DNA of 31,478 bases from a virus. The notes beneath the pieces were generated by a model. The model was not told where the DNA came from, ran no database searches, and was given only the letters and a program-made list of their open reading frames with translations. Shown here piece after piece: positions 22,727-27,074 of this stretch. The translations under genes and the position numbers were made by a program. The stretch's first letter is position 1. Each line of letters starts with the position of its first letter. Where the stretch lies: IMG/VR virus record IMGVR_UViG_3300012988_000032, positions 1 through 31,478 of that record; one strand, 5' to 3'.

Positions 22727-23158
22727 ATGCTTAAAAACCTCACACAATATGGAGAGTTTGCCCAAAGACTGACAATCGGCGGCATATATCACTATGTTTA
22801 TGATGCCAAGTACAAGGAACAGCTTGACACTTGGGACAGGTTGCCATTGTGTGTTCCAATTGACATCACCAAGAAACACATCCTCGGATTGAACCTTCAC
22901 TATGTTCCAGTGAGGACAAGAAGATTGATTCTGATTGAGTTGATTGGAAACATCCAGAAGATCAATGATAACGTCAAGCTTCAAAGAGCGAACTATGCTG
23001 TGCTACAAAGGGCAGCAATATTTGATGACGTGTCACCTTGTATCAAGAAATACCTGTTCAATCACGTCAGAAGCCCATTCCTTGAGATCTATCCTAGGTT
23101 TTGGCCTAAGATAGTTGAACTACCAACTGCCCAGTGGACTGGGAAGAGACCATACTAA
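22727..23158 (+). CDS. Unassigned phage protein with LGLNLHYVP motif (143 aa)
   Basis: I do not recognise a function. The central segment HILGLNLHYVPVRTRRLILI (about residues 51-70) has the look of a conserved motif seen in small proteins of T4-like environmental phages. The N-terminus has an aromatic-rich IGGIYHYVYDAKYKEQL segment, and residues 110-143 are rich in Pro, Trp and Arg. No membrane segment, signal peptide or catalytic motif was seen. No good Shine-Dalgarno site precedes the ATG. It is the first gene after the rightward late promoter and its stop overlaps the next start as TAATG, so it is co-expressed with tail-tube and hub genes. A tail or head assembly role is only a contextual guess. 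Confidence 0.75.
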   Translation: MLKNLTQYGEFAQRLTIGGIYHYVYDAKYKEQLDTWDRLPLCVPIDITKKHILGLNLHYVPVRTRRLILIELIGNIQKINDNVKLQRANYAVLQRAAIFDDVSPCIKKYLFNHVRSPFLEIYPRFWPKIVELPTAQWTGKRPY

Positions 23159-24003
23159 TGTCACTAAAGAGCTTGCTTTCATTCTTTGACTCCCCATTCA
23201 GGCCACGTAAGGCCAAAGCTGGGTTCAATATAGATGACTTTAGAAGCCACTATTCCAAATATGGTGAGGTTGCAAAGGCTGACAAGTTTCTTGTCCAGTT
23301 GACTCCACCTGCTCTACTCAGGACTTCTGAGTTTGGTGCCAAGGAACTAACCTTCCAGTGTGAGGCTGCTGAGTTTCCTGGAATTGATATCACTCCAATT
23401 GAGTACAGGCATTATGCTTTCGTCAAGCGTATCCCTGGTCATTTGAACTTCACCCCATTGACCTTGACATTTTACTGCAATGGTGAAATGGTTGAGAAGA
23501 AGTTCTTTGATGTTTGGTTCTCAGCATGTATTGCTAGAATGGGTCAGGCTGCTGGTACTGTAGAATATAGACTAGATGACACTGGCACCCCAAACTATGA
23601 AACTGATATCAAGATCATGCAATATGATCAGGTCAGTCGTGAAGTGTATTATTCAGAGGCTCTTGAATGTATGCCTCTTTCCATGAGTGCTCTACAGACT
23701 AACTGGTCTGATGATAGCATCCACCGTTTGAGTGTGACCTTTGGTTTCACCAAGTGGATTGCTGATTCTGATAAGAAGACTGAGGAAATGATGGATGAGG
23801 TTACGGTCAGAGGTTCCAACTGGAACAACCAGATCAACTCCATCATCAACAAGGGCATTGATGTCAAGAATGCTGCCAAGATTGGTATTGGTAGTATCAA
23901 CAATGTGACTGGAACTGTCCAGTCCTACAAGGATCTATTGGGTAATCTTGATACACAGATTCCATCAACCAAGTCTATCAAGAACCCATTTAAGTCCTTC
24001 TAA
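23158..24003 (+). CDS. Tail-tube-like protein, probable gp54 tube initiator (281 aa)
   Basis: It contains the beta-rich tail-tube-type fold: KADKFLVQLTPPA, AKELTFQCEAAEFPGIDITP, then GHLNFTPLTLTFYCNGEMVE and a SIHRLSVTFGFTKWIAD strand (residues about 38-205). This gives the 'ligand out, strand, VTFAF-like strand' order of gp54/gp19 proteins. The length is nearer T4 gp54 (320 aa) than the tube protein gp19 (163 aa), so a tube initiator in contact with gp48 is the better guess. The C-terminal 75 residues are helical and polar. The ATG at 23158 overlaps the preceding TAA (TAATG) and has GAAGAG upstream. An in-frame GTG eight codons earlier is less likely. Confidence 0.65.
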   Translation: MSLKSLLSFFDSPFRPRKAKAGFNIDDFRSHYSKYGEVAKADKFLVQLTPPALLRTSEFGAKELTFQCEAAEFPGIDITPIEYRHYAFVKRIPGHLNFTPLTLTFYCNGEMVEKKFFDVWFSACIARMGQAAGTVEYRLDDTGTPNYETDIKIMQYDQVSREVYYSEALECMPLSMSALQTNWSDDSIHRLSVTFGFTKWIADSDKKTEEMMDEVTVRGSNWNNQINSIINKGIDVKNAAKIGIGSINNVTGTVQSYKDLLGNLDTQIPSTKSIKNPFKSF

Positions 24004-24018
24004 TCGGAGTAATTTGTT

Positions 24019-24747
24019 ATGAAGCTTCCAATTATTGATAAGCCAGTCTATTTGATTAAGCTCCCTTCATTCAAGGATCCTGTAAGGATCACTGCCTACA
24101 CAATGAAGGAAAGTAAGATCTTGATGCTCGCCAAGGAAAGCGAAAATCAAGAAGAAATCCTGAATGCCATCAAGCAAGTCATCCAGAATTGCGTTGTGGA
24201 TGATATCAATGTAGATGAAATCCCAATGTATGATCTTGAGGTTCTGTATTTGAACATTCAAGCAAAGTCTGTTGGTGAAAACACTGACCTGTACTTTGAG
24301 TGTAAGAATCAGGTTGATGGAAACAACTGTGGAATGGTCATTGAGTGCAGCGTAAATCTTGAAGAGGTTGCGGCTGTTGATCCATTCCCTGACACAAGGA
24401 TCATGTTCAATGAGACCGTTGGAGTCACACTGAAGCACCCATCAATATCTTCAATCAAGAAACTATTGAAGGCTCCGTTGTATAATCCAAACACACCTGA
24501 GCCAATCATGATGGCTGTTTACTCCTTGAATCAGATCTTTGACAAGGACAGCGTGTATGATGCAAAGGATGCTCAGGTCAGTGAGTTGATTGAATTCATT
24601 GAGAGTCTTTCAGAGCCTAACTTTGAGAAGATTGAGAAGTTCATTGAGAACACACCAAGCGTCTCCAAGGTCATTGAAACTGATTGCCCAAGATGCAAGT
24701 ATCATCACAAAATTTTGTTGGAGGGTTTGCAAGATTTTTTCGTATAA
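24019..24747 (+). CDS. gp26: Baseplate hub assembly protein gp26
   Basis: It belongs to the T4 gp26 family. In T4, gp26 acts with gp51, gp27, gp28 and gp29 in hub assembly. The length is 242 aa (T4: 208). MKLPIIDKPVYLIKLPSFKD begins the protein. A conserved middle (DLEVLYLNIQAKSVGE, about residues 74-89) and a C-terminal Cys/His knuckle (CPRCKYHHKILLEGLQDFF, about residues 223-241) are visible. GGAG precedes the ATG by nine bases. The last codons form a T TTT TTC slippery heptamer followed by the TAA stop and a potential pseudoknot. A -1 shift would give a 316-residue fusion with the following frame. gp26 would then exist as a short and a long form. Confidence 0.88.
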   Translation: MKLPIIDKPVYLIKLPSFKDPVRITAYTMKESKILMLAKESENQEEILNAIKQVIQNCVVDDINVDEIPMYDLEVLYLNIQAKSVGENTDLYFECKNQVDGNNCGMVIECSVNLEEVAAVDPFPDTRIMFNETVGVTLKHPSISSIKKLLKAPLYNPNTPEPIMMAVYSLNQIFDKDSVYDAKDAQVSELIEFIESLSEPNFEKIEKFIENTPSVSKVIETDCPRCKYHHKILLEGLQDFFV

Positions 24748-24968
24748 GCACCGGAGATGGTGCGCTGAAAAATCTCTTCGAGGTAAACTTCAATCTAATG
24801 TATCACCACAAGATTGATCCAAACATCTTCAATGACTACGCACCATGGGAAAGGGACATCTATTTGAAACTGTTGACGAATGAGGTTGAAGATGAGAACC
24901 TGCAGGCAAGACAGGCTGCTGCATCCTCTAGGGTTAGCAAGGCCACAAGAATTAGGAAACCTCGTTGA
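24684..24968 (+). CDS. -1 frame extension of gp26; small chaperone-like protein
   Basis: This frame overlaps the end of gene 26 in the -1 register. The overlapping first 20 codons (24684-24740) are probably not a real start: no Shine-Dalgarno site precedes ATG 24684. The conserved-looking part begins after the slippery site at 24741 and encodes 75 residues, including VNFNLMYHHKIDPNIF and APWERDIYLKLL. A histidine-containing helix followed by a PWER-type helix is reminiscent of the downstream frame of tailed-phage tail-assembly chaperones. An internal ATG at 24798 with GAGGT upstream could give a separate 56-residue protein instead. In T4 the gene after 26 is 51, a hub-assembly catalyst; this may be its positional counterpart. 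The next gene is a tape-measure candidate. Confidence 0.65.
   Translation: MPKMQVSSQNFVGGFARFFRISTGDGALKNLFEVNFNLMYHHKIDPNIFNDYAPWERDIYLKLLTNEVEDENLQARQAAASSRVSKATRIRKPR
24735..24776 (+). promoter_or_regulatory. Candidate -1 programmed frameshift site (slippery heptamer plus pseudoknot)
   Basis: T TTT TTC occupies 24735-24741 in the zero frame of gene 26, a canonical X XXY YYZ heptamer. After a six-base spacer (which includes the TAA stop, 24745-24747), GCACC (24748-24752) can pair with GGTGC (24759-24763). The loop bases GAGAT (24754-24758) are complementary to ATCTC (24772-24776), giving an H-type pseudoknot. Loop lengths are one base and eight bases (GCTGAAAA), with the two stems directly adjacent. 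Confidence 0.75.
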
Positions 24969-24979
24969 TTAAATAATAC

Positions 24980-26437
24980 ATGGAAGAAAACAATCAAAAC
25001 TCAGCTGGATCCATCAACACCCCAACAGGAATGGGGTTGAAGGATGTTTCCCAATCTCTATCAGATTCAGATGTTGACCTCTCACCGAAGGGTGATGTAA
25101 AGAAGGTTGGCAGGGTCTGGGGTCGTAATCCTTTCAAGATCCCAAAGGGAGTCAAAACAGGAAGCCCAGAGAGCGTAGATCTCAAGATCATCAAAGCTGA
25201 CATCCAAGCAATCAAGGATGCGCTTCTAGAATCAAAGAGAGTGAAGAAGATCAAGAAGGGCACAACCGTTGGGAACCAGCCTTCAGCTGCGAAGTCAGAT
25301 GGTTTGGTCAGTAGCTTCTTCAAGGGTGTTGATGATCATCTTGATCCAATCTCAGCTGATGTTGTAGATGCTGGCAAGTGGTTGTTCAAGAAGATGACTG
25401 GTAAGATGACCCCAAAGGAAGCTAACACCAGAGCAAGAGAAATGAAGAAGACCGGTGGCAGCAGTTCATCTGGTGAACTTGGTGAAATGAAGGACAGGCT
25501 TGTCAAGCTTGACTTGAGACTTGAAGATGATGTTGCTGGCATCAACAAGAAGCTTGACTTGATCCTAGAAAAGACTGATGGACTTGGTGGCAGTTCACTT
25601 GATGGCATTGGGGGCTTGATCACTAGAATCATCAGTGGAGCTATGGCTGGTCTCAGTGCCATGATGAGTGGAATGTGGGGTGCTATCAAGAGCATTGCCA
25701 AGTTCTTGGGCGTTGGTATTGGTGCTGCCATCAAGAAGATCACTAAGAAGGGCGCAGTTGTTGCTGGTGGAGCAGGTGCTGCCACCGTCGCAAGAAAGGC
25801 TGCTATGAAGGCAGCTGAGAAGAAGGCTGGAAAGGCTGCCGCAAAGAAGGCAGCACTAAAGGCTGCAACTGTTGGCGTTGGTAAGATGGGTTTGAAGGCA
25901 GGATTAAAAGCTGTGCCTTTGGTTGGTTTGGCTGCCGGTCTAGGATTTGGTGCATACAAGCTCGCCAAGGGTGACTTTACAGGTGCAGCATTGGAAGTTG
26001 GTTCTGGTGCTGCTTCACTAATTCCAGGTGTTGGTACTGCTGCAAGCATTGGCTTGAGTGGTGCATCAATTATTAGAGACGTCAAGAAGGATACTGACAA
26101 GGCCAAGTTGGATCTCAACAGACAAAATGATGTTGAGACTCAGGCCGATGATTTGTTGAATCGTTCAGTTGCTATGGTTCCACCAGCAAGGGTTGATCAG
26201 AATCTCAACAAGGCAATGAAGGAACAGAAGGAATTCAAGACTGCTCCATCACATACTCACAGTGTTGTGCAGCCAATTGTTATCAACAAGAAAGAAAAGA
26301 CTAGAGTTGTTCAGCAGCCATCTGGTTCAAACAGACCAGCAATTGTTAGAACAAGAAATGATGAGAAATCATTGAATTCAACTGTGGTTGGGTTGTATGA
26401 TGCACCTCAAGGGTACAACACGCTCTCTAGACTCTAA
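24980..26437 (+). CDS. Candidate tail tape measure / gp29-like hub protein (485 aa)
   Basis: The gene after the gp26 chaperone region is expected to be the tape measure (T4 gp29, 590 aa), and the composition agrees. There is a charged helical N-terminal part (about residues 55-95 and 165-200) and a hydrophobic helix (about 208-250; IGGLITRIISGAMAGLSAMM). A Lys/Ala-rich helical stretch follows (about 255-310). A second Gly/Ala-rich hydrophobic region (about 311-365) includes GDFTGAALEVGSGAASLIPG. A polar C-terminal tail comes last. The similarity to gp29 is positional and compositional, not a motif match. The ATG has no clear Shine-Dalgarno site and starts 11 bases after the preceding stop; Met17 is an alternative. 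Its 3' end overlaps the convergent methyltransferase gene by 11 bases. Confidence 0.6.
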   Translation: MEENNQNSAGSINTPTGMGLKDVSQSLSDSDVDLSPKGDVKKVGRVWGRNPFKIPKGVKTGSPESVDLKIIKADIQAIKDALLESKRVKKIKKGTTVGNQPSAAKSDGLVSSFFKGVDDHLDPISADVVDAGKWLFKKMTGKMTPKEANTRAREMKKTGGSSSSGELGEMKDRLVKLDLRLEDDVAGINKKLDLILEKTDGLGGSSLDGIGGLITRIISGAMAGLSAMMSGMWGAIKSIAKFLGVGIGAAIKKITKKGAVVAGGAGAATVARKAAMKAAEKKAGKAAAKKAALKAATVGVGKMGLKAGLKAVPLVGLAAGLGFGAYKLAKGDFTGAALEVGSGAASLIPGVGTAASIGLSGASIIRDVKKDTDKAKLDLNRQNDVETQADDLLNRSVAMVPPARVDQNLNKAMKEQKEFKTAPSHTHSVVQPIVINKKEKTRVVQQPSGSNRPAIVRTRNDEKSLNSTVVGLYDAPQGYNTLSRL

Positions 26438-27074
26438 CGATCCAGAATCGGCGATTCTTGCCGCCTGCAAATTCACCCACGTGACCAGAAAACACTGGCC
26501 AATCATACTTGTGATAAGTGGTATTCAAGTCGCTGTCATCATAGCGAGTGAATGCTACTCCAAGCGAGGTCAAATACTTCTCAATGAATGCAGCTGATGG
26601 GCGGATGCCAATGCCATTCAATGCTTGGTCATAGTATGGCATTTCTTCCTGTTTGAATTCATAGCTATCATCACTGGAGTTTGCCACCTCAGTCTCAAGG
26701 ATCATAACTGATTTGGTGTGCTTTACTGCTTGAGCCAAATCCTGTTGCCAGTTCTTAAGATGATACAACACACCGGTGTGAAGAACAATGTCAAACTTTC
26801 TTTCAAGATCCCATTTTCCATCTTGGTCCATGACAATAGTTTCATACTTGTGATGTTTGCCATACAACTTGCTGAAATTGTCTAGGTGTTCAGGACGACC
26901 ATCAGTGAATGTTACTTTGGTTCCAAGCTTATCAAACATCATTCCAAGCTTACCAAGTCCACAACCAAGCTCAAGCATTGTCTTGCCTGAGAAATAGTCA
27001 GCACCAAACAATGATATGATTTTGTCATACCTTGTTTGGCGCCAGTCATCATAGTGTCCGTCAAATGCATCCAT
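26427..27074 (-). CDS. Class I SAM-dependent methyltransferase (215 aa)
   Basis: The Rossmann-type motif I is MLELGCGLGKLG (residues 33-44). An acidic motif II follows strand 2 (VTFTDGRPEHL, about 54-64). The motif IV region is FDIVLHTGVLYHL (94-106), which places it with the Methyltransf_11/25-type enzymes. The substrate is unknown; the absence of a DPPY/NPPY motif argues against an adenine or cytosine-N4 DNA methylase. The gene stands alone, between the terminator hairpin on its 5' side and the convergent tape-measure candidate. Two closely spaced ATGs lie at the start; the first was taken. It could modify a sugar, RNA or small molecule; no neighbour helps decide. Confidence 0.85.
   Translation of the reverse strand: MDAFDGHYDDWRQTRYDKIISLFGADYFSGKTMLELGCGLGKLGMMFDKLGTKVTFTDGRPEHLDNFSKLYGKHHKYETIVMDQDGKWDLERKFDIVLHTGVLYHLKNWQQDLAQAVKHTKSVMILETEVANSSDDSYEFKQEEMPYYDQALNGIGIRPSAAFIEKYLTSLGVAFTRYDDSDLNTTYHKYDWPVFSGHVGEFAGGKNRRFWIVRV

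Follow-up and report, generated by a model that had tools for sequence, protein, structure and literature searches.

A gp26-gp51 cassette in T4-like marine phages: a tail-assembly chaperone very probably extended by -1 programmed ribosomal frameshifting

In tail-assembly chaperones of the lambda G/GT type, the 3' end of the gene for the short protein carries a slip site, and a -1 frameshift there yields the long form; the genes lie between the tail tube and tape-measure positions. The E. coli dnaX -1 cassette consists of an SD-like site, a slippery heptamer, and a hairpin. Frameshifted tail chaperones are a known class: in the Vandenendeviridae/Andersonviridae chaperone, a conserved -1 shift on a GTTTTT slip has been described where the short gene ends (PMC12846349), and the chaperone genes of T4-like phages were identified in 2022, the work of Vladimirov et al. 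being cited in the PRFect paper (PMC10885494) for an arrangement of short gene plus fusion found in certain T4-like phages. Sullivan et al. 2010 (PMC3037559) described cyanophage gp51 as being without its first ~200 residues. A literature search, in which Vladimirov et al. 2022 was represented by papers citing it, found no paper tying cyanophage gp51 to frameshifting.

The window analyzed here is the whole of a 31,478-base IMG/VR virus record. A DNA-level search of phage records gave no match. Its + strand carries, in order, a DNA end protector gene, a tail tube/gp54-like gene, gene 26, a gp51-type frame, and a 485-aa ORF, with the following features.

22727-23158, + strand: DNA end protector
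23134-24003, + strand: tail tube/gp54-like gene, 5' of gene 26 (phrog_45 tail tube, 1.7e-30)
24019-24747, + strand: gene 26, putative short tail-assembly-chaperone form, 242 aa, ending ...GLQDFFV (PF12322, phrog_150)
24720-24725, + strand: SD-like GGAGGG, 9 nt 5' of the slippery heptamer
24735-24741, + strand: putative slippery heptamer T TTT TTC for a -1 shift, the C at 24741 being read twice
24741-24968, + strand: -1 frame extension, gp51-type, 75 aa plus stop (phrog_634, tblastn)
24745-24747, + strand: zero-frame stop TAA of gene 26, within the 6-nt spacer GTATAA
24748-24763, + strand: candidate stimulatory hairpin GCACCG-GAGA-UGGUGC, 6 bp with a GNRA-type loop (predicted fold)
24980-26437, + strand: 485-aa ORF 3' of the extension, in the tape-measure position

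Like the lambda G/GT genes, the putative cassette lies between a tail tube gene (phrog_45) and a long candidate tape-measure ORF, the latter placed here by position only. It differs from them in its sequence family (PF12322), in belonging to a contractile T4-like phage, and in its T TTT TTY slip, which an SD-like element precedes. SD-like element, slip site, gene 26 stop, and hairpin stand in the canonical order, which is the element order of dnaX, although the window hairpin is weaker and its position is not conserved among relatives. The dnaX-like SD stimulator ~10 nt upstream is matched by the window GGAGGG with its 9-nt spacer and by an excess across the family. The Vandenendeviridae/Andersonviridae system likewise uses a -1 shift, but the motif and the protein family context differ from those of the window. 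The 485-aa ORF itself is Ala/Lys/Gly-rich and poorly conserved, and peptidase/endolysin-type PHROG profiles match only part of its length. A methyltransferase-like gene (26427-27074, - strand) lies between this ORF and a ssDNA-binding protein gene.

Gene 26 belongs to PF12322 (T4_baseplate; 3.3e-47 in Pfam) and matches phrog_150 at 3e-51 among the PHROG profiles. The gp26 and gp51 extension proteins were folded as separate models. When the AF2 model of gp26 (pLDDT 94.1) was used in a structure comparison, the HK97 tail assembly chaperone 2ob9 scored Z 7.5 across 84 residues, 3fgx scored Z 7.6, and the third match, 5ir0, scored Z 5.2, with every remaining row at 2.9 or below. Foldseek of the model against the PDB gave no significant match, chaperones being separated from the rest only in the second comparison, and a PDB sequence search with the gp26 profile gave nothing relevant. 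The resemblance of the predicted N-domain fold to the HK97 tail assembly chaperone is suggestive, at Z values below 8 that unrelated folds can reach.

Gene 26 ends with the zero-frame codons GAT TTT TTC GTA TAA. A -1 shift at the heptamer would give CGT ATA AGC and onwards, a frame open to the TGA at 24966-24968 and encoding 75 residues after the slip, beginning RISTGDG. The profile search against gp51 that the original prediction had proposed for these residues placed them in phrog_634, "baseplate hub assembly catalyst", at 5.9e-14 (query 8-64, profile 64-120 of 121). In tblastn, P-SSM2 gp51 matched at 44% (5e-8) with homology from the first post-slip residue (query 1-54), and so the prediction that the conserved part starts right after the slip was upheld. 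The extension matches 486 phage records, most of them from cyanophages but also from, among others, Pelagibacter phage Mosig. The gp51 homology of P-SSM2, Mosig, and V09 starts at the same place, and their slip DNA is identical, TTTTTTCGTAT, despite gp26 proteins that are ~30% identical and gp51 matches of ~44% for P-SSM2 and Mosig. What is annotated in cyanophages and vibriophages as a stand-alone short gene, "gp51 baseplate hub assembly catalyst" (phrog_634), belongs to the same family and locus. Pfam gave nothing above cut-off for the 75 aa, which are predicted to be helical (pLDDT 78).

The reading that this frame is open from the slippery site also stood up among relatives. Of the 86 whose junction is complete, all keep 50 codons of the -1 frame open, as against 0/86 for the other two frames, and the mismatches by codon position in the -1 frame (0.447/0.290/0.598) form a coding signature. 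A sister contig (L001), 98.0% identical over 4.9 kb, shows just three differences across the 950 nt spanning gene 26 and the extension; all three lie outside the extension and leave gp26 unchanged. On this sequence evidence, the 24741-24968 frame is a real coding sequence. In S-SSM4 (L088:2501-2695), Cronobacter phage S13 (L089:3169-3333), and ACP17 (L091:3262-3416) the gp51 frame is unannotated and appears as an intergenic gap.

For the slip site, 80 IMG/VR loci were fetched by patterns in the N-terminal part of gp26, a choice that leaves the sample unbiased toward the slip site. The junctions analyzed were the 90 ending Phe-Phe from the IMG/VR loci and named phages; excluded from the count were L065, cut by a contig end, and L045, set aside by the script (its codons are also GAT TTT TTT). 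T TTT TTY was present in 90/90 of these junctions (59 TTTTTTC and 31 TTTTTTT) and in all 62 representatives less than 60% identical in gp26. Given the codon use of each locus, the expected heptamer share among the 62 representatives was 0.46 per locus; the product, ~1e-26, ignores kinship and is overstated because relatives share ancestry. Internal Phe-Phe pairs of the same genes have the heptamer in only 4 of 49 cases. In the codon alignment, the codon before the slip and the first TTT show the highest synonymous conservation among 232 gp26 codon columns (excess 0.44 and 0.46, sd 0.07), while the second Phe codon, either TTT or TTC, has no excess. These data argue strongly that the putative slip site is under strong selection in the family, and the arrangement appears in most of the T4-like marine phages sampled as a conserved one. 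S-PM2, P-HM1, and Sf-FR1 have T TTT TTC, and RHph_I34 has T TTT TTG. Four Ackermannviridae-type genomes, Kuja, K475, phiMAM1, and Cba120 (L092, L096, L097, and L101), have a gp51-like frame in the same -1 register with CTT TTT, GTT TTC, or ATT TTC instead of T TTT TTY; in phiMAM1 and Cba120 this downstream frame is unannotated.

The GGAGGG has the best anti-SD energy in the window (-9.8 kcal/mol). Across the family, 16S 3'-end pairing peaks for 9-mers starting 15-16 nt 5' of the heptamer, and the mean SD-like pairing is -6.27 against -5.00 for the synonymous null (sd of null means 0.19). The upstream SD-like site thus exceeds what the protein sequence requires, which argues strongly for selection on it. 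The original prediction had likened the extension to the downstream frames of tail-assembly chaperones, a likeness favored by the apparent strong selection on both slip site and SD-like element. Downstream, the predicted window hairpin begins 6 nt past the heptamer; the fold over 59 nt is -12.5 kcal/mol, with a z of -1.54 that is of modest significance. Family downstream folding is modestly stronger than the synonymous null (mean z -0.87, s.e. 0.17), and is strong in P-SSM2 (z -4.4) and its relatives. No single family-wide conserved downstream stem was found, its place and sequence varying among relatives, and Rfam over the junction gave no match.

It is very improbable that the extension is a free-standing small gene. 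Such a gene would encode 56 aa from ATG 24798, which is present as originally predicted, or 94 aa from an upstream start that proved to be TTG 24684 rather than an ATG inside gene 26. Cyanophage homologues are annotated as separate gp51 genes, and GAGGT lies ~13 nt 5' of ATG 24798 (-6.9 kcal/mol), a distant site through which that ATG may give a minor internal product. The SD-like pairing of TTG 24684 is weak (-3.3 kcal/mol), in keeping with the earlier judgment that a gene of this kind is poorly supported. Moreover, the conserved residues begin at the slip, upstream of 24798, so the free-standing "small chaperone" under which the frame had been titled is not retained. The equivalent internal ATG in relatives is without SD (mean -0.31 versus a background of -1.22), an in-frame upstream -1 ATG occurs in only 4/90, and the conservation of the slip codons would be left unexplained.

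Transcriptional slippage on the T run, by which length-changed mRNAs would give the fusion through normal decoding, is very improbable. Every case does have a run of 6-7 T, but this is short, and the SD-like element is a ribosomal signal. Nor is there selection for TTT at the second Phe codon, although TTT lengthens the run; the freedom of that codon speaks against slippage of the transcript and fits re-pairing of tRNA-Phe.

Translational coupling, in which ribosomes that have terminated gene 26 reinitiate at a start codon overlapping the stop or close to it and produce only gp51, is scarcely credible as the general explanation. An ATG overlaps or adjoins the gene 26 stop in Vibrio phage V09, Sf-FR1, and RHph_I34, and coupling could operate alongside frameshifting in a minority of phages. 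However, the window has no ATG at the gene 26 stop, an ATG 3-5 codons past the slip is found in ~17/90 relatives, and the first ATG is mostly 16-21 codons in (most commonly 20-21), inside the conserved domain. Decay or sequencing error, a one-base indel splitting a continuous gene in this contig, would account for frames joinable by a single-base difference, but its probability is negligible given the same stop and shift in ~90 genomes and an unchanged junction in the 98% identical sister contig.

Programmed frameshifting is the reading we prefer: we put at roughly 0.93 the probability that gene 26 together with the -1 frame makes up a single frameshifted tail-assembly-chaperone cassette producing a gp26-gp51 fusion by a -1 slip, on the basis of sequence, conservation, homology, and predicted fold. 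The 75-residue frame is very probably the C-terminal part of a longer chaperone made by -1 programmed ribosomal frameshifting. The majority of ribosomes would complete gp26, the short form of 242 aa. Pairing of the 16S tail with GGAGGG, perhaps together with the downstream hairpin, would pause a fraction of ribosomes; stepping back by one base at T TTT TTC, these would escape the TAA and translate 75 more residues, yielding a long form, a gp26-gp51 fusion of ~316 aa. If they work like lambda G/GT, the two forms would coat the tape-measure protein and deliver it in tail and hub assembly. It is from knowledge of the family that we infer the shifting, its efficiency, and the tape-measure/chaperone role.

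T4 seems to have reached the two forms differently. T4 gp51 residues 1-201 match PF12322 (3.9e-52), its C-terminal part matches phrog_634 (1.2e-23), and hhalign places the extension profile on residues 200-244 (E 3.4e-5), whereas T4 gp26 ends at the slip equivalent (...GLKEFFELL). T4 gp26 and gp51 are homologous, both having PF12322, and gp51 has the same C-terminal extension as the window. T4 gp51 therefore joins a gp26-like domain and the extension in one frame, and its counterpart would be the whole fusion. The proposal that the 75 residues stand in for T4 gp51 holds insofar as they belong to the phrog_634 family and the T4 gp51 C-terminus carries the same extension; taken alone, they match only its last ~46 residues. 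With gp51 having both parts and gp26 stopping at the slip equivalent, T4 would encode the short and long forms separately, as two divergent paralogous genes without a frameshift, whereas the window has one gene plus a slip and its fusion requires the shift. Separate T4 genes agree with what PMC10885494 cites from Vladimirov et al. 2022. In 44RR the short and long forms are also separate, divergent genes. A Klebsiella phage (L099:2501-3792) has a long gp51-like gene and then a short gp26-like gene in tandem on one strand, unlike the divergent pair of T4. We lean slightly toward a history in which SD-stimulated frameshifting was ancestral in T4-like phages, T4 26/51 arose as a duplicated pair with the long form hard-wired and the slip lost, and the Ackermannviridae retained the -1 register on another slip site, the non-canonical NTT TTY.

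Frameshifting would supply the ~200 residues missing from cyanophage gp51 and thus explain its truncated look. Annotation usually treats the gp51 frame of T4-like phages as a gene of its own or overlooks it, for which a frameshift would account, and the corrected annotation, a gp26-gp51 fusion, would apply to hundreds of phage genomes. It would also tie the two hub chaperone genes of T4 to the chaperones that other tailed phages make by frameshifting, and would offer a small, naturally occurring frameshift element whose SD is conserved, testable in cyanobacterial and E. coli laboratory hosts.
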